NCBI RefSeq assembly: GCF_002287235.1 | Contig: NZ_LMVP01000157.1 | Span: 1 to 42,716 of the forward strand | Direction: 5' to 3' | DNA from: Methanosarcina spelaei | GTDB taxonomy: Archaea; Halobacteriota; Methanosarcinia; Methanosarcinales; Methanosarcinaceae | Length of the DNA: 42,716 nt | Shown: piece after piece, positions 4,143-14,832 of the stretch | How the letters are laid out: each line of letters opens with the position of its first letter | Position numbering within the stretch: position 1 is the first letter of the stretch | The notes under the pieces: generated by a model | Told to the model about the DNA's origin: nothing | The model's database searches: none | What the model saw: only the letters and a program-made list of their open reading frames with translations | Position numbers and translations under genes: made by a program

Positions 4143-4255
4143 TTTTATATAATTTTTTATTATTTCATCGTGGTCACAGTGTTAATGAATAACTATTTAC
4201 ATAATAAATTTTAAACTATTGAGAGAAAATACTCTCTATATACTTTTTGAAGGAG
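4143..4255 (+). promoter_or_regulatory. Promoter and leader of the 595-residue protein gene
   Basis: A strong archaeal TATA-like block (TTTTATATAA, 4143-4152) would place the transcript start near 4178, giving a leader of about 90 nt. Within it, a small inverted repeat GAGAG-N6-CTCTC (4221-4236) precedes an excellent ribosome binding site (GGAGG, about 4251-4255) in front of the TTG start at 4266. The transcript start is inferred by spacing only. Confidence 0.4.
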
Positions 4256-4265
4256 GCAAGATCTT

Positions 4266-6053
4266 TTGAATAACGAAGTGTATGCTGCAGTAATGGCTTC
4301 AGTCTCAGGTATCCAGAATCTTACAAACGATAGAATTGAAGCCCTGACCAAAGGCCATGGAATGACAAACATAGGCGCTATGTGTGCTGCAAACGCTATC
4401 GCTACAGAGCTTTTCCGGGGTGCGAATATCAAGCTTACCGATGAAGATAGTGGCAGCCTGGAAATTGATCATGTACTCAAAAAAGGCATTGAAGCCGCAG
4501 AAGAAGCCGGAGCAAGCCCTGCAAATGCAGCCCTTTTTGCAGCTACAATCTGCTACTTTGCAGGTTCCAATGCCCAGGCCGGAGTCCCTGCAGGGAACCG
4601 GAAGTTAGGGGCACTTGCCCGTATGATTGCAGGAGCGGACAGGACAGGGGTTATAGCTGTTCCCACTCCCAAATCCAACAATAAGGTCTCAGGCTTTGCA
4701 GCCGTGCAGGCTATTTACAGTGCTATGGCGGAAGGCAAGCTTACCAGAATTGATGGGCGAAAACTTCCCCTGGGAGTTGCAGGCGGTCCTCTGTACGGGC
4801 ACAACACCCTCGGAGAAGACATAGGCTTTCCGGAAGTAGCCATGAATGGTGCAAGGATAGGGACAGAAGCGATGATGCAGGCCTATTGGGGAGCAGGTGT
4901 TTCCGCAAGCCCCATCATTTCGGCAGCGCTCGGGGCCGCAGCAGCTCTTGAAATTGTTCATCCTGATGCTTTTGTGGGTGAGGAATACGGCGGTTTCTTC
5001 GAAGTGAACAGCGCCTACCTTGCAGGCAAAGCTGCATGCCAGGCTGCAGGCATCCCGGAAAAGCTTCATATGCGCGGCACAGACGAAGAATATGACTCTT
5101 TTCGGCTGGTAGGGGACCTTGGGGTCATCTTAAAAGACATAGGGGCTCCGACTGTTGTTGGAATGATGTCTTTTGGCGAGATGCTATGCGCTTTTAAAGA
5201 ATCTGTAGAAATAGGGGCTGGTTTTTCCGGCGGGCCTATAATGCCTCCTCTTGGGCATATGACTGCAGATTCCATAATTGCCCTCAGGGCCCTGATCAAG
5301 TTTGAAGGCAATATCGAACAGGCTGCAGATATTATTGCAGAGGTAAAAAAGAACGAATGGCTTGACCCGGAAATTGCCTCAGTTGCCCTTAATACCATTG
5401 CAAGGAAGACCGAACAGGTACGGAGAGGCCCTATTACACGTACCATGATCCTCGGGACTGATGGAGTTCGCTCAGCCGCAATTGTCAGGAGGGCAAAAAA
5501 GGCATATGAGGATATAAAAGCCGGAAAGTCCGTAGAGGATGTCGTGCGGGAACTGGACCTGGAAAGGAAGAAAACTGTTGAAACCAGGGCTGCTGCGATG
5601 CTTGGAGCCATGACAGGGCACGATATCAGGATTGAAATCAAGAAAATGGTCGGAGGTGCCCGTAGAAGCCATCCCTTCACGAATTCTTACTACGGGTTTG
5701 ATACGGATGCTGATGTTGAACTAACTGTAGACGGCAAGACTTTCGAACTTCTGGGGCTTGGGCAGAAGGTGATCCCGGACGCTATTTTCAATGACAGAAC
5801 GGAGCTTCTGGAAATTATACCCCTCGCAGCCATACCCGTCTGTGAACTTCAGCTTTCGGGGCACTCGATTATTAATATCACAGTACCTGCAGCCGTTGCA
5901 GCTGCAATGAACGTTGCCGACCCAAAAGAAGTTGCAAAGCTTGCAGAAAAAGGAGGGAAGTCCTGTTCAGCTGCAATTCCCGGAGCCCGGGAAAAAGCGC
6001 TGGATGTTGCAAAGCTAGCAGTCAGGATAATGAGATCCATGGAAGGTATCTGA
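4266..6053 (+). CDS. Unrecognised 595-residue soluble protein next to a LarC-like protein
   Basis: The start is TTG, chosen because a perfect GGAGG sits 10 bases upstream. I do not recognise the family. The N-terminal half is rich in Gly and Ala and reads like a helical enzyme core: GHGMTNIGAMCAANAIATEL, then AGVPAGNRKLGALARMI, GVAGGPLYGHNTLGEDIGFP and GAGVSASPIISAALG. A middle block (about 290-360) contains MMSFGEMLCAFKESVEIG and GGPIMPPLGHMTADS. The last third has an acidic/basic helical part followed by a beta-rich domain (DADVELTVDGKTFELLGLG). No signal peptide, membrane helix or CxxC cluster is present; six or so cysteines are scattered. A distant resemblance to the helical serine-dehydratase alpha layout came to mind but no diagnostic motif supports it. 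It lies 144 bp upstream of a LarC-domain gene on the same strand. Confidence 0.85.
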   Translation: MNNEVYAAVMASVSGIQNLTNDRIEALTKGHGMTNIGAMCAANAIATELFRGANIKLTDEDSGSLEIDHVLKKGIEAAEEAGASPANAALFAATICYFAGSNAQAGVPAGNRKLGALARMIAGADRTGVIAVPTPKSNNKVSGFAAVQAIYSAMAEGKLTRIDGRKLPLGVAGGPLYGHNTLGEDIGFPEVAMNGARIGTEAMMQAYWGAGVSASPIISAALGAAAALEIVHPDAFVGEEYGGFFEVNSAYLAGKAACQAAGIPEKLHMRGTDEEYDSFRLVGDLGVILKDIGAPTVVGMMSFGEMLCAFKESVEIGAGFSGGPIMPPLGHMTADSIIALRALIKFEGNIEQAADIIAEVKKNEWLDPEIASVALNTIARKTEQVRRGPITRTMILGTDGVRSAAIVRRAKKAYEDIKAGKSVEDVVRELDLERKKTVETRAAAMLGAMTGHDIRIEIKKMVGGARRSHPFTNSYYGFDTDADVELTVDGKTFELLGLGQKVIPDAIFNDRTELLEIIPLAAIPVCELQLSGHSIINITVPAAVAAAMNVADPKEVAKLAEKGGKSCSAAIPGAREKALDVAKLAVRIMRSMEGI

Positions 6054-6197
6054 GTACCATCCACAAGCTAAGAACCAATCAATCCACAAAAAACGGCATT
6101 GGATTCTGGACAGAGGAGAAAGGATTTAAGTTACAGGCTTTAATTCCATTTCCACCTCTGCCTTTTTCTTTTCTGGAAAACGCCGGGAGGCTTCTTT

Positions 6198-6788
6198 TTG
6201 TTGTTGATGACTAACGTTGACAATATCACCTGTGACCAGGTCCCGTACCTGATCGAAGAATTGATGAAACTTGGAGCTAAAAACGTACATGTAATGCCTG
6301 CCCTTACAAAAAAAGGCAGGCCTGAATATATTTTTCTCATTGATAGTGAGAAAGATACTCTTGATTCACTTGCCGAGTTCATGGCACTGGAGACCGGGGC
6401 TCTCGGGGTCAGGCTTTTGAAGACCGAGCATTATCCCTTTGACTACGAGCTGAGAAAGCTTTGCCTTTCTTTCAGGGATGAAAATGACCTGCCTCTCTGG
6501 GAAGGGGAAATTGATATAAAAATAGTTATAGGAAAAGAACAAAAGCCCCTTTCTGCCCGAGTGGAGTACGAAGAACTTAAGGAACTGGCAAGCAGGGTAA
6601 GAGAAGAGGGCCTGAAGCTTTCCATGTACGAAATTAAAGAATTAATTGAAGAAAGGGCTCTGAAAGGCATAAAGGACTTTACTGTTAATTTCAATGATTG
6701 TGGTCCGGGACTGGATAGTGAGTCTCTGCCCCCGGTTTCGAAAAAACTTTGCTGTAAGGATCAGACAAAAACCTGCTTCGGGAATTGA
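6198..6788 (+). CDS. Stand-alone LarC C-terminal-domain (LarC2-like) protein
   Basis: This 196-residue protein aligns by eye with the C-terminal part of the full LarC encoded at 10116-11306: NVDNITCDQVPYLIEELMKLGAKNVHV here against TNADDVSGEVLGNLFEELLA there, then MPALTKKGRPEYIFLI against LPATMKKGRPAHVIKV, and ETGALGVRLLKTEHYPF against ETGSLGVRVIPTRHRLM. In LarC this domain takes part in CTP-dependent nickel insertion into the pincer cofactor. A separate protein with only this half is unusual outside split larC1/larC2 genes. The Cys-containing tail (KLCCKDQTKTCFGN) could bind a metal. TTG at 6198 is preferred because GGAGG at 6186-6190 is correctly spaced; an in-frame ATG lies at 6207. It is probably co-transcribed with the upstream 595-residue protein. 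Confidence 0.8.
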   Translation: MLLMTNVDNITCDQVPYLIEELMKLGAKNVHVMPALTKKGRPEYIFLIDSEKDTLDSLAEFMALETGALGVRLLKTEHYPFDYELRKLCLSFRDENDLPLWEGEIDIKIVIGKEQKPLSARVEYEELKELASRVREEGLKLSMYEIKELIEERALKGIKDFTVNFNDCGPGLDSESLPPVSKKLCCKDQTKTCFGN

Positions 6789-7008: not shown

Positions 7009-7587
7009 ATGAAAGAACAAATCAAAGACAAAAGAAAAGCCATTATGGAAGCAGCCCTGAAGCTCTTTACTGAAAGAGGCTTCCACGGTACATCCACTGC
7101 TCAGATTTCAAAAGAAGCAGGTGTAGCCACAGGCACGCTTTTCAATTACTTTCCTACGAAAGAGGACCTTATCAATAGTCTGTATTTTGAAGTAAAGGGA
7201 GAGTTAAGCCGCAGTATGGGGAAAGAAATTGAGGTACAGGGTATCTTCAAGGATAAATTAAAAAAAATATGGTCGAACTTAGTCAGATGGGGAATCGAAA
7301 ATCAGGATGAATTCCTTTTTGTCGGACAGTTCTGCTCATCCCCTTATATCACAAAGTTTACGCGTGATGAAGTGATGAAAGAATATGTCTTCCTCCATAA
7401 GCTTGTGGATGAAGGAATAAGAGAAGGAGAGATAAGAGACTTTTCCGCAGAGCTTACCATTGCAATGTTTTATCAGAGTAGCAGGACAGTAGTGAACTTT
7501 ATCCTTGATTCGGATTCTTCACTGGACGAAAATAAGGTTTTAGAAGATGGATTTCAGATCATTTGGAGAGGTCTGGCTGATAAATAA
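7009..7587 (+). CDS. TetR/AcrR-family transcriptional regulator
   Basis: A 192-residue repressor-type protein. Residues about 9-56 form the TetR helix-turn-helix (AIMEAALKLFTERGFHGTST, AQISKEAGVATGTLFNYFPT, KEDLINSLY), with the signature Gly-Thr-Leu-Phe-Asn-Tyr-Phe. The rest is an all-helical ligand-binding/dimer domain without recognisable ligand residues. It probably represses itself and the adjacent aldo/keto reductase, because the same near-palindrome lies at its own transcript start and in the 73-bp gap before the reductase. TetR proteins are much commoner in bacteria than in methanogens, so acquisition from a bacterium together with the reductase is plausible, though codon use is not obviously foreign. 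The inducer is unknown. Confidence 0.92.
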   Translation: MKEQIKDKRKAIMEAALKLFTERGFHGTSTAQISKEAGVATGTLFNYFPTKEDLINSLYFEVKGELSRSMGKEIEVQGIFKDKLKKIWSNLVRWGIENQDEFLFVGQFCSSPYITKFTRDEVMKEYVFLHKLVDEGIREGEIRDFSAELTIAMFYQSSRTVVNFILDSDSSLDENKVLEDGFQIIWRGLADK

Positions 7588-7660: not shown

Positions 7661-8860
7661 ATGCTGTACAGAAAAGTTCCGAAGAATGGAGACGAGCTTT
7701 CGATACTTGGATTCGGATGCATGCGCCTTCCATTGAAAGAAGACGGCAGTATAGATGAAGAAAGAGCCACCAAGCAGGTACGCTATGCAATTGACCATGG
7801 AGTAAACTATATTGATACTGCATGGCCCTATCACATGGAACAGAGCGAGCCTTTTTTAGGTAGTGCTCTTGCTGATGGATATCGAAAAAAGGTCAAACTC
7901 GCAACAAAGCTCCCTTCCTGGCTTATAGAGAACCGGGAGGATATGGATAAGTTCTTGAATGTCCAACTGGAGAAACTCAAAACAGACCACGTCGACTATT
8001 ACCTTATCCACGCTCTCGTTGGTGAACTGTGGGACAATATTGAAAAGCTGGGTGTAGCTGATTTCCTTGACAAAGCCAAAGCTGATGGTCTAATAATTAA
8101 CGCAGGTTTTTCCTTCCACGGTTCAGGAGAGGATTTTAATAGGATAGTTGACGCCTATGACTGGGATTTTTGTCAGATACAGTACAACTTCCTTGATGAA
8201 AAAAACCAGGCAGGTACCAGGGGTTTGGAATATGCAGCTTCAAAAGGCCTTGGAGTAATCATTATGGAGCCTCTACGTGGGGGAAACCTCGTAAGTCCAG
8301 TGCCTCCTGCTGTAAAAGAGATATGGGATGAGGCCCCTACTAAGAGGACTCCTGCAGAATGGGCTCTTCGCTGGGTATGGAACCATCCAGAGGTCACGGT
8401 TGTCCTCTCCGGAATGAATGAGGAAACACATATTAAAGAGAACCTGAAGGTTGCAGGCGAGGCTTACCCGAATTCTCTGGCTGAAGCTGAACTGCAGCTA
8501 ATAAGGAAAGTAGAGCAGAGGTACCGTGAACTGATGAAAGTAGGCTGTACAGGCTGCAGATACTGTATGCCCTGCCCGGCAGGAGTGGACATTCCGTTAT
8601 GTTTCGAAACGTACAACAACCTGTACATGTCCAACAATGCAGGCGATGCAAATTTCATGTATGCTGCAAGGCTGGGTGGTATTCTAGGCGGAGAAACCGG
8701 ATTTGCATCCCAGTGCGCAAAATGTGGAAAATGCCTTGAGAAATGTCCCCAGCACCTTGATATCCCAACAATTCTCGAGTCCGTTGTAGAAGAACTTGAA
8801 GGATCTGATCTGGAGGAGAGAGTTGCCATGGCAAAGCAGCTGTTCAAGAAGCAAACATAA
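7661..8860 (+). CDS. Aldo/keto reductase with C-terminal [4Fe-4S] domain
   Basis: A 399-residue fusion. Residues 1-280 are an aldo/keto reductase barrel with the catalytic set Asp52 and Tyr57 (NYIDTAWPYH), Lys83 (LATKLP) and His117 (YYLIHAL). The C-terminal 110 residues are ferredoxin-like with two cysteine groups, CTGCRYCMPCP (about 294-304) and CAKCGKCLEKCP. This is the COG1453 type of predicted oxidoreductase, thought to pass electrons between NAD(P)H- or carbonyl-linked chemistry and ferredoxin; the substrate is unknown. A clear AGGAG precedes the ATG. The gene follows the TetR regulator by 73 bp and carries the shared operator, so expression is probably induced when that repressor is released. 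A long 3' hairpin follows. Confidence 0.92.
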   Translation: MLYRKVPKNGDELSILGFGCMRLPLKEDGSIDEERATKQVRYAIDHGVNYIDTAWPYHMEQSEPFLGSALADGYRKKVKLATKLPSWLIENREDMDKFLNVQLEKLKTDHVDYYLIHALVGELWDNIEKLGVADFLDKAKADGLIINAGFSFHGSGEDFNRIVDAYDWDFCQIQYNFLDEKNQAGTRGLEYAASKGLGVIIMEPLRGGNLVSPVPPAVKEIWDEAPTKRTPAEWALRWVWNHPEVTVVLSGMNEETHIKENLKVAGEAYPNSLAEAELQLIRKVEQRYRELMKVGCTGCRYCMPCPAGVDIPLCFETYNNLYMSNNAGDANFMYAARLGGILGGETGFASQCAKCGKCLEKCPQHLDIPTILESVVEELEGSDLEERVAMAKQLFKKQT

Positions 8861-9175: not shown

Positions 9176-9982
9176 ATGGATCTTACTGACATACTTAAAG
9201 CTGTCAAAGACGGAAAAATGGATGTTGAGACTGCGGAGCAGAAGGCTCGGAGCCTGGGGTTTGTTTCTTATATGGATATAGCAAAACTTGATTCTCACAG
9301 AAAAAGCAGAACCGGAGTAATCGAGGCTATTCTTGCCGATTGTAAAGACCCTGACGACGTGGTAGAAATTGCGAGAATCATGGTTGCAGAGAGCAAAAGA
9401 GCCCTTATTACACGAGTTTCGTCAGGGCATCTGGAAGCCTTAAAGCAGGCTTTTGACCAGGATAAACTTGAGTGGAGCAGCAGAGCCCGCACCGTTGTTG
9501 TCCATGATGGCACACCTGCACCCAGAACCGGTGGTGTCGTAGGGTTTGTTTCAGCAGGCACGGCAGATATCCCAGCTGCGGAAGAAGCCAGGGTTGTAGC
9601 TTCAGAAATGGGGTGTGAGACTGTTGCGGTTTATGATGTGGGGGTTGCAGGAATCCACAGACTTATCCCGGCAATGGACAAACTGAAAGCTATGAAACCC
9701 GGAGCAATCGTGGTTGCAGCCGGAAGGGAAGGAACGCTTCCAACGATAGTTTCGGGATTAGTTGACGTACCTGTAATCGGGCTTCCGGTTTCGACAGGCT
9801 ACGGAGCAGGTGGAAGAGGAGAGGCTGCCCTGCTAGCAATGCTCCAATCCTGTTCGACACTTGCAGTTGTGAATATTGATGCAGGCTTTGTTGCGGGAGC
9901 ATATGCAGCCAGAATTGCAAACATGATTGCAGCTGCCTACACACATGGCAAAGAAGACAGAACAGGCCAAGAGGGAGAGTAG
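9176..9982 (+). CDS. larB: LarB, nickel-pincer nucleotide biosynthesis carboxylase
   Basis: A 268-residue protein of the LarB family (AIR-carboxylase/PurE-like fold). LarB carboxylates the pyridine ring of nicotinic acid adenine dinucleotide and releases AMP, giving pyridinium-3,5-biscarboxylic acid mononucleotide, the first step to the Ni-pincer cofactor. The helical N-terminal part has the typical DLTDILKAVKDGKMDVETAE and FVSYMDIAKLDSHRKSRTG. The PurE-like core shows GFVSAGTADIPAAEEARVVA, VYDVGVAGIHRLIP, VVAAGREGTLPTIVSGL and PVSTGYGAGGRGEAALL. Length (about 250-270) is normal. An AGGTGAAGG ribosome site precedes the ATG. larC follows after 133 bp of minisatellite; no larE or larA is in the window. 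Confidence 0.95.
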   Translation: MDLTDILKAVKDGKMDVETAEQKARSLGFVSYMDIAKLDSHRKSRTGVIEAILADCKDPDDVVEIARIMVAESKRALITRVSSGHLEALKQAFDQDKLEWSSRARTVVVHDGTPAPRTGGVVGFVSAGTADIPAAEEARVVASEMGCETVAVYDVGVAGIHRLIPAMDKLKAMKPGAIVVAAGREGTLPTIVSGLVDVPVIGLPVSTGYGAGGRGEAALLAMLQSCSTLAVVNIDAGFVAGAYAARIANMIAAAYTHGKEDRTGQEGE

Positions 9983-10115: not shown

Positions 10116-11306
10116 ATGAAGGCACTTGTATTCAACCCTTTTTCAGGGGCAGCAGGAGATATGATCCTTGGGTGCACTCTTGATCTCGGGGCTGACCGAA
10201 AAACGGTTAAAGAATTGATAGAAGCTTCTGTTGACGTATCAGTGGATATAAGAGAAGTTATGAAAAAGGGAATAAAAGCCCTTGATGTCCGAATAAACGT
10301 ACCTGAAAAAGAGCCAGTCCACACATACCCTGAACTCATAGATATAGTAAAAGCTGCAAAACTGCCCCCCAATGTGGAAGCAAGTACCCTTGATATTTTT
10401 TCAAAGCTTGCTGAGGCTGAAGCTTCGGTTCACGGGCAGCCTGATCTTGAGAAACTTCACTTCCATGAAGTGGGGCAGAGTGATGCGCTTGCCGATATAA
10501 TCGGCTCTTCGGCAGCTATCCATTCCCTTAACTGTGAATCTATTTACTGCACTCCTATAAACGTAGGCAGTGGAACAATTAAATGCGCACATGGAATTCT
10601 GCCTGTGCCAGCACCTGCAACTCTTGAGCTTCTCAGGAAAGGAAAATTCTATTTTAGGGGAGGGATTGAGCAAAAGGAACTTCTTACTCCGACAGGAGCT
10701 GCAGTTCTTGCTCACTTTACAAGACCCCTGGAAGCTTTTCCTCAGGGCAGGGTAATTTCAATAGGGTACGGAGCAGGGGATTCCGAGCTTGCAGGGCCTA
10801 ACGTGCTTCAGGGAATATTAACCGAACTTGATTCCTGCCTGATTCCGGATATAATAGAAGTTCTCGAAACGAATGCCGATGACGTGAGCGGAGAGGTCCT
10901 GGGGAACCTGTTCGAAGAACTGCTCGCTATGGGAGCAAGAGATGTTGCAATTCTCCCGGCAACAATGAAAAAAGGCCGTCCAGCTCATGTTATTAAGGTC
11001 ATTGCAAAGCCTGAAGACACTGCAAAGCTCGCCCGGAAAATCATTATCGAAACAGGATCCCTTGGAGTTAGAGTTATTCCTACCCGGCACAGGTTGATGG
11101 CTGCCAGGCGAATAGAATTGGTTAAGTTTGAGATAGAAGGGCAGACATATGAATCTGCGGTCAAGATTGCCAGGGACTCTGAGGGAATTCTGCTCAACAT
11201 CTCTGCTGAGTTCGAGGACTGCAAAAAAATCGCAAAAACAACCGGTACCCCTGTAAAAGAGATTATGAGAAAGGTAGAGGAAGCTGGAAGAAAACTATTT
11301 TTATAA
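10116..11306 (+). CDS. larC: LarC, nickel insertion protein of the pincer cofactor
   Basis: A 396-residue full-length LarC (formerly DUF111). LarC inserts nickel into the dithio-pyridinium nucleotide in a CTP-dependent reaction. The N-terminal signature NPFSGAAGDMILGCTLDLGA and the HFHEVGQSDALADIIGSSAA block with its His-rich stretch are present, as are GSGTIKCAHGILPVPAPATLELL and ELLTPTGAAVLAHF. The C-terminal LarC2 part starts near residue 245 (VLETNADDVSGEVLGNLFEE) and includes PATMKKGRPAHVIKV. Both halves are in one frame here, so no frameshift like that in Lactobacillus is needed. It follows larB and probably belongs to the same transcript. A second, stand-alone copy of the C-terminal domain lies at 6198-6788. 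Confidence 0.95.
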   Translation: MKALVFNPFSGAAGDMILGCTLDLGADRKTVKELIEASVDVSVDIREVMKKGIKALDVRINVPEKEPVHTYPELIDIVKAAKLPPNVEASTLDIFSKLAEAEASVHGQPDLEKLHFHEVGQSDALADIIGSSAAIHSLNCESIYCTPINVGSGTIKCAHGILPVPAPATLELLRKGKFYFRGGIEQKELLTPTGAAVLAHFTRPLEAFPQGRVISIGYGAGDSELAGPNVLQGILTELDSCLIPDIIEVLETNADDVSGEVLGNLFEELLAMGARDVAILPATMKKGRPAHVIKVIAKPEDTAKLARKIIIETGSLGVRVIPTRHRLMAARRIELVKFEIEGQTYESAVKIARDSEGILLNISAEFEDCKKIAKTTGTPVKEIMRKVEEAGRKLFL

Positions 11307-13731: not shown

Positions 13732-14832
13732 TCAATCGTCTTTCCTGTATATATTAACCTTGCATATTTGCTCATGTGCATGTTCACCATGACTCTCAGA
13801 GTGAGCATCAGTATCATGCTCATGAACTTCCTTTTTAAAGATAAAACCTGATTTCCCGAGATTTCCTTCAAGAGTGCTTTCAATTATCTCTATGAGTTTA
13901 GATTTTGGGACCTTTGTAACTGCAGAAAGCAGTCTGAGTTCTGTTTTCTTACCTTCCAAGTTAGGGAGAAATTCTACTTGAGGCACTTCTTTAGAGGAGG
14001 TTACACTACCCTTAACTGCAGACTCTGGAAGTTTCATGGAAAGCTTTACATGCCCTACAAACTCAGGGTTAATTTTCCGAATCATGTCCTGAATGGTCTG
14101 AAGGTTTTCTTCTACGAAACATGCACTTTCTTCAGGACTGAAATCCTGTGATCCAAGTGTATAGAGAACTGAGTAAGCCGAAACTTCAGAAAGCTCAATG
14201 GAATTTTTCTTTTCCCGGGAAGGCTTTTTAAATCCCGGTACATCGAGAAGTAAAAGCAACTTTTCGAATTGATCATCTTGATGTTTTGCAGAGAATTTGA
14301 GAAGCTGAGCTTCAGGGTTTATATCATAGAGCATTTTCTCAGCAGCCAGGACAGTTTCTACAGGTGTTACATCAATCTTGTTTATGCAGAGAATTTCAGC
14401 ATCTTTTATCTGCGTCTCTATAAACTTCGGGATTTCTTTTGCCTCGGTCCCGAACCGGACAGGGTCTATAAGGGTTACTATTGGGGCAAAAGATAGCTCA
14501 GAGAGTCCCATTGTTTCGATTTCGTCCCGTATCTGACCAGGAAAGGCGATTCCTGTCGGTTCGATAATGACAATGTCAGGCATAAACTCTTCCTCAAGGG
14601 TCTGAAGGGTATACTGCATGCTTATCCTGAGTGTACAGCAAATGCAGCCGCTTGTAAGCTCCTCGGTTACAATGCCAGGCCTTGAAAGAATATCCCCGTC
14701 AAGCCCGATTTCCCCTATTTCGTTTACAATAATTGCAATCTTTTTCCCTGCGTTACTTAGCTGCCTGCTGATTCTCAGTATAGTGGTTGTTTTCCCGCTT
14801 CCAAGAAAACCTCCTATGATCATGACTTTCAT
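13732..14832 (-). CDS. CobW/COG0523-family GTPase with His-rich tail
   Basis: A 366-residue G3E-family P-loop GTPase, a class of metal chaperones for zinc, cobalt or nickel. Walker A is GGFLGSGKTT (residues 7-16). The COG0523 metal motif CxCC is at residues 63-66 (TSGCICCTL), followed by IIEPTG and the guanine motif NKID. The C-terminus carries a His/Glu/Asp-rich metal-binding tail (HEHDTDAHSESHGEHAHEQ). Which metal and which target protein cannot be decided from sequence. In a methanol-using methanogen, candidates are zinc delivery to methyltransferases such as MtaB, or nickel/cobalt handling. It is followed on the same strand by the small winged-helix-like protein. Confidence 0.93.
   Translation of the reverse strand: MKVMIIGGFLGSGKTTTILRISRQLSNAGKKIAIIVNEIGEIGLDGDILSRPGIVTEELTSGCICCTLRISMQYTLQTLEEEFMPDIVIIEPTGIAFPGQIRDEIETMGLSELSFAPIVTLIDPVRFGTEAKEIPKFIETQIKDAEILCINKIDVTPVETVLAAEKMLYDINPEAQLLKFSAKHQDDQFEKLLLLLDVPGFKKPSREKKNSIELSEVSAYSVLYTLGSQDFSPEESACFVEENLQTIQDMIRKINPEFVGHVKLSMKLPESAVKGSVTSSKEVPQVEFLPNLEGKKTELRLLSAVTKVPKSKLIEIIESTLEGNLGKSGFIFKKEVHEHDTDAHSESHGEHAHEQICKVNIYRKDD

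Follow-up and report, generated by a model that had tools for sequence, protein, structure and literature searches.

What is the function of a 595-residue protein encoded next to a free-standing LarC2 domain? The question arose from a stretch of 42,716 nucleotides of Methanosarcina spelaei (contig NZ_LMVP01000157.1), called the window throughout this text. A first-pass annotation had described a TTG-started gene for a 595-residue protein of unrecognised family, located 144 bp upstream of a gene for a 196-residue protein, and had suggested that the pair could be a separate metal-insertion or cofactor-dependent system, with the 595-residue protein as enzyme. The description of the genes held in full. 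The open reading frame of the 595-residue protein, here termed P595, starts with TTG and covers positions 4266-6053 of the forward strand, the spacing to the second open reading frame is exactly 144 bp, and profile searches assigned P595 to no family (see below). The motif AAGGAGG (4250-4256, forward strand), read from the sequence as a strong Shine-Dalgarno ribosome-binding site, ends 9 nt 5' of the TTG, and near-cognate start codons recur in the Methanosarcinaceae orthologues (TTG, and GTG in one genome). Compared with an 89%-identical orthologue (locus L034), differences were counted at 49 first, 24 second and 286 third codon positions. As they fall mostly on the third position, P595 is a real protein under purifying selection. 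The reading frame is followed on the same strand by the free LarC2 domain (6198-6788), a TetR-family regulator (7009-7587, by Pfam), whose location between LarC2 and LarB is lineage-specific, an aldo/keto reductase with C-terminal 4Fe-4S domain (7661-8860, by Pfam), which locus L039 likewise has in its gene run, and LarB (9176-9982; NF033503, 235 bits, cut-off 175), responsible for the carboxylation/hydrolysis step in the synthesis of the nickel-pincer nucleotide (NPN). Full-length LarC with both LarC1 and LarC2 (10116-11306, forward strand, by Pfam and NCBIfam), responsible for nickel insertion, comes next. A CobW-type GTPase downstream of LarC (13732-14832, reverse strand, by Pfam) was also seen in several Methanosarcina-type loci. 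Three LarA homologues in tandem were found on a different contig of the source genome (C112:56499-61496, loci L031-L033); LarA and P595 therefore coexist in this organism.

P595 represents an undescribed protein family. Searches of Pfam and NCBIfam with P595 gave nothing above the curated cut-offs, the comparison with PDB sequences gave no match, and a profile built from 51 members found no credible match in the PDB. When the 51 members were themselves scanned against Pfam, one marginal match emerged, confined to a single sequence. The weak matches of P595 to VAPB_antitox, Fe-ADH_2 and GetA remained under the Pfam/NCBIfam cut-offs and were discarded, as were 7udk and 4h7l from the PDB profile search, which were short or concerned a designed protein. 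Structure prediction with AlphaFold2 gave a mediocre model from 21 archaeal sequences (pLDDT 76.5). After addition of the bacterial sequences (51 in total) the pLDDT rose to 92.9 with a pTM of 0.92, and the model is nearly all helical. Foldseek comparison of this model with 350,542 PDB chains revealed no fold relative (best E 0.12). A match of P595 to a characterised family unrelated to metals, which would have refuted the first-pass reading, was thus found neither in Pfam and NCBIfam nor by PDB sequence and Foldseek searches. The Rhizobium tropici CIAT 899 member (WP_004112731.1) is annotated as 'hypothetical protein'. The alignment of the 51 sequences, spanning Bacteria and Archaea, contains 53 invariant columns rich in D, E, H, K and R, among them H31, N111-R112-K113, K136, H179, E184-D185, H232, D284, K290-D291 and R466-R467, a pattern as would be expected of an enzyme.

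The partner gene (6198-6788) also starts with TTG and encodes 196 amino acids; an in-frame ATG at position 6207 leaves the start uncertain by three codons. The first-pass annotation had matched this protein to the C-terminal LarC2 half of a full LarC encoded downstream, and both parts of the statement proved right: the protein reached 61.3 bits with the NCBIfam LarC2 model NF052512 (cut-off 50) and 76.4 bits with Pfam Ni_insertion (PF01969), covering model positions 247-366 of 375 and thus the C-terminal half only, and the full LarC lies at 10116-11306. A search for the LarC1 domain (TIGR00299) in the 196-residue protein gave no match. With LarC and canonical LarC2 (NF052512, PDB 6bwo and 12bi) the free protein shares the LarC2 domain and the residues D8, K38-K39-x-R41, K108 and E123. 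It differs from them in the missing LarC1 half, in its tie to P595, and in invariant residues of its own (N29, D49, H78), which are unconserved in canonical LarC2. The best solved structure for the free LarC2 profile was Methanopyrus kandleri MK0293 (PDB 3c19, E 3.7e-15), likewise a short stand-alone protein, whose entry is labelled uncharacterised. The LarC or LarC2 gene adjacent to P595 was additional to another LarC gene in 16 of 18 P595 genomes checked; the exceptions were two Anaerosphaera genomes, where the split LarC2/LarC1 pair beside P595 is the only one.

Scanning the GTDB genome collection, 103 relatives of P595 were confirmed, 80 of which were kept as named loci. They occur in rhizobia, Paracoccus, beta- and gammaproteobacteria, Firmicutes, Abyssobacteria, Poribacteria, Thermoproteota, Thorarchaeota and Methanobrevibacter; methanogens, gut bacteria and root-nodule bacteria are among the hosts. 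The survey showed the two genes together in many lineages, as the first-pass reading required. A LarC-family open reading frame was found in 73 of the 80 loci, or 74 when the Poribacteria locus L113 is counted, which is a detection miss among the seven loci lacking a match; some of the seven are cut by contig ends. The distance between P595 and the LarC gene was within 300 bp at 72 loci, 71 of them with both genes on the same strand, and at 46 loci the genes overlapped or were separated by at most 20 bp. Within the Halobacteriota P595 is present in 33 of 295 genomes, and at 28 of the 29 loci fetched its direct neighbour belongs to the LarC family: Methanosarcinales-type loci have LarC2, and most of the remaining loci a full LarC. 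Four archaeal genomes (G213, G249, G252, G254) contain broken or fragmented P595 genes, which suggests loss in progress or assembly gaps. The gene order changes from P595-LarC2-LarB-LarC in Methanosarcina and LarC2-P595-LarB-LarC1 in several Firmicutes to P595-LarC2-LarC-LarE-LarB in proteobacteria (rhizobia, Paracoccus, gammaproteobacteria).

This last arrangement is a complete NPN pathway. At the locus tested (L104) LarC2, LarC, LarE and LarB all scored above their NCBIfam cut-offs, and in rhizobial P595 operons LarB is often followed by a nickel transporter of the HoxN/HupN/NixA type. Loci of the Rhizobium tropici group (L098-L100, L109, L114) show a LarE split into two open reading frames of ~134 and ~121 aa, which may be a pseudogene or a gene that functions in two pieces. 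Whole-genome searches found no LarA in any of seven proteobacteria (Paracoccus, Mesorhizobium, Rhizobium, two Sinorhizobium and two gammaproteobacteria), and each of these genomes has only one true LarB, located inside the P595 operon. Overall, LarA was absent from 12 of 24 P595 genomes tested. Among the P595-positive Halobacteriota no LarA match was obtained for 21 of 33 genomes, all 21 with matches for LarB and LarE.

The family Rhizobiaceae allowed a direct comparison of loci with and without P595. LarB is rare there (12 of 347 genomes) and P595 accompanies it in one genome. The assumption that LarB in Rhizobiaceae always implies P595 was wrong, as 11 of the 12 LarB genomes lack P595 and most of these have LarA. 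A LarA homologue with Lar_N domain was located upstream of LarC-LarE-LarB at seven of the 11 loci, five times immediately adjacent and twice ~1.8 kb away. The P595-bearing genome has P595-LarC2 at the position held by LarA elsewhere, so that in this one bacterial family P595-LarC2 takes the usual place of LarA. This slot replacement is the strongest argument for P595 as a client of the pathway. Concerning the other loci, LarB is separate from LarC at L117 and L120, and L117 encodes a LarA-like protein recognised by eye, under the Pfam threshold. Neither LarA nor P595 was found in the stretch read at L122 and L126, which may encode further orphan NPN clients. Locus L122 contains LarC and LarE alongside LarB, and an aldo/keto reductase adjoins its LarC.

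P595 might instead serve NPN biosynthesis as an accessory or maturation factor, for instance by storing, modifying or handing over the cofactor or by assisting the second LarC, and not be the end user of NPN. The tightest tie of P595 is indeed to LarC/LarC2, and P595 is sometimes found beside LarA (L093, L106, L108). Nevertheless, we consider this unlikely: in the seven proteobacterial genomes with complete operon and without LarA an accessory P595 would leave the pathway without known client, and relatives from the same family with LarA in that slot need no P595.

How similar is P595 to the enzyme whose place it takes? LarA, the lactate racemase family (PF09861/PF21113), comprises NPN-dependent 2-hydroxy-acid racemases and epimerases. 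Both proteins occupy the same slot upstream of LarC-LarE-LarB, both have several invariant histidines and lysines, and P595 is a proposed client of the LarA cofactor. The LarA-family trait of adjoining NPN biosynthesis genes was also found for P595. Neither Lar_N nor LarA_C was matched in the Pfam scan of the window P595 and the 51 family members, and alignment of the P595 and LarA profiles by hhalign gave a probability of 0.2%, hence no profile similarity. P595 lacks the cofactor loop HYFAGFSGGRK of LarA, in which the lysine carries the NPN; it has a variable glycine-rich loop and no GRK. The resemblance of AGFSGG at P595 positions 318-323 to this loop was rejected, as F320 is present in 33 of 51 sequences, the first G of the GG also varies, and hhalign showed no similarity. 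Moreover, P595 differs from LarA in its predicted almost all-helical structure, whose fold is found in no PDB chain, and in having its own LarC2. By domain, motif and profile tests P595 is no LarA, yet it probably works like one.

Taken together, we favour P595 as a client enzyme of a lar-type pathway and give this reading a probability of about two in three. In this reading LarB, LarE and LarC make NPN or a close derivative, and P595 would bind this cofactor and employ it in catalysis, either alongside LarA or instead of it. The partner dedicated to P595 would be the small LarC2 or, in Methanomicrobiales, the second full LarC. LarC was reported to carry out CTP-dependent cytidinylylation of the substrate phosphate followed by nickel insertion (PMC11796402). 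The free LarC2 retains the core residues of the domain for CTP-dependent nickel insertion and might perform both steps for P595; most likely it would supply or load the nickelated cofactor. Cofactor binding and catalysis by P595 as well as its interaction with LarC2 are what we infer from sequence and gene arrangement. The first-pass reading stood with regard to metal, as the complete lar operons with nickel transporter and the occupation of the LarA slot strengthen that link, and its roles for P595 as the enzyme and LarC2 as the metallation partner appear plausible. It did not stand with regard to separateness: P595-LarC2 belongs to the nickel-pincer pathway as one of its branches and is normally accompanied by LarB, LarE and LarC.

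The main counter-evidence to P595 as an NPN client comes from Anaerosphaera aminiphila and A. multitolerans (L052, L058), which possess P595-LarC2-LarC1 and neither LarB nor LarE in the genome. Consequently, these bacteria either import a precursor, use a different precursor or cofactor, or are incompletely sequenced. Such loci would suit an explanation in which P595 and LarC1/LarC2 make or use another metallated nucleotide or small-molecule cofactor, with LarB and LarE involved only in some lineages, and the invariant N29, D49 and H78 of the free LarC2 point the same way. Given LarB and LarE inside the proteobacterial P595 operons and LarB in all 33 P595-positive Halobacteriota genomes, we regard this explanation as distinctly improbable. 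Some genomes of Firmicutes and Methanosarcina encode LarA and P595 together. In many Methanomicrobiales LarB and LarE are present with neither LarA nor P595; P595 is therefore no answer for all orphan lar pathways. Nearly all of the 295 Halobacteriota genomes sampled contain LarB and LarE, even those missing both LarA and P595, and the lar pathway presumably has further users.

Returning to P595 as an NPN client, the gene neighbourhoods were inspected with regard to its substrate. PatB-type C-S lyases were encoded in the P595 region of rhizobia, Sporomusa, UBA6113, Blautia schinkii, a Lachnospiraceae and Pyramidobacter, and several of these regions also contained RidA and other PLP enzymes or amino-acid transporters. 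The single PatB above cut-off in the 7.1 Mb of Sinorhizobium terangae lies ~6-7 kb upstream of P595. The Abyssobacteria locus (L055) features RACo, MtrH, URO-D and corrinoid proteins as neighbours. At this locus and at the Poribacteria locus the LarC2-P595 pair has a TetR-like regulator and a corrinoid-activase-like gene in its vicinity; at L055, MtrH, URO-D and a corrinoid protein come next. Mimosine degradation was considered as a possible role of the rhizobial PatB-RidA-transporter neighbourhood and set aside, as the literature searched offered nothing decisive. The neighbours of P595 are suggestive of amino-acid, sulfur or C1 metabolism and fix no substrate. That P595 is an enzyme independent of metal which just happens to be transcribed together with lar genes, as might be imagined from wider contexts that vary by lineage (PatB/RidA/amino-acid transport versus corrinoid methyltransfer in an uncultured bacterium), is very improbable, since the link to LarC2/LarC is kept across dozens of lineages while all else changes. 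The chemistry of P595 as NPN client might tentatively be the transfer of a hydride or proton, with an amino acid, hydroxy acid or thiol as substrate. Evenly balanced, in our judgement, is the wider proposal of P595 as a second class of NPN enzymes, related to LarA neither by sequence nor by fold, with LarC2 as dedicated loader and with substrates other than hydroxy acids, such as amino acids or sulfur compounds.

About 15% of the genomes in a survey contain larB, larC and larE but no larA, and for this reason non-LarA NPN-binding proteins were predicted (mBio 2024, PMC11796402). The literature searched, subscription journals excepted, contained no paper naming such a protein, and LarA was the only enzyme family known there with NPN. 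What was known is the cofactor pathway; new is its proposed client, a protein family without fold match in the PDB. P595 is a concrete candidate for the predicted NPN proteins of genomes with larB, larC and larE and without larA. With Rhizobium tropici CIAT 899, Methanosarcina, Eubacterium and Sporomusa it has culturable hosts, in which the genetic prediction is directly testable.
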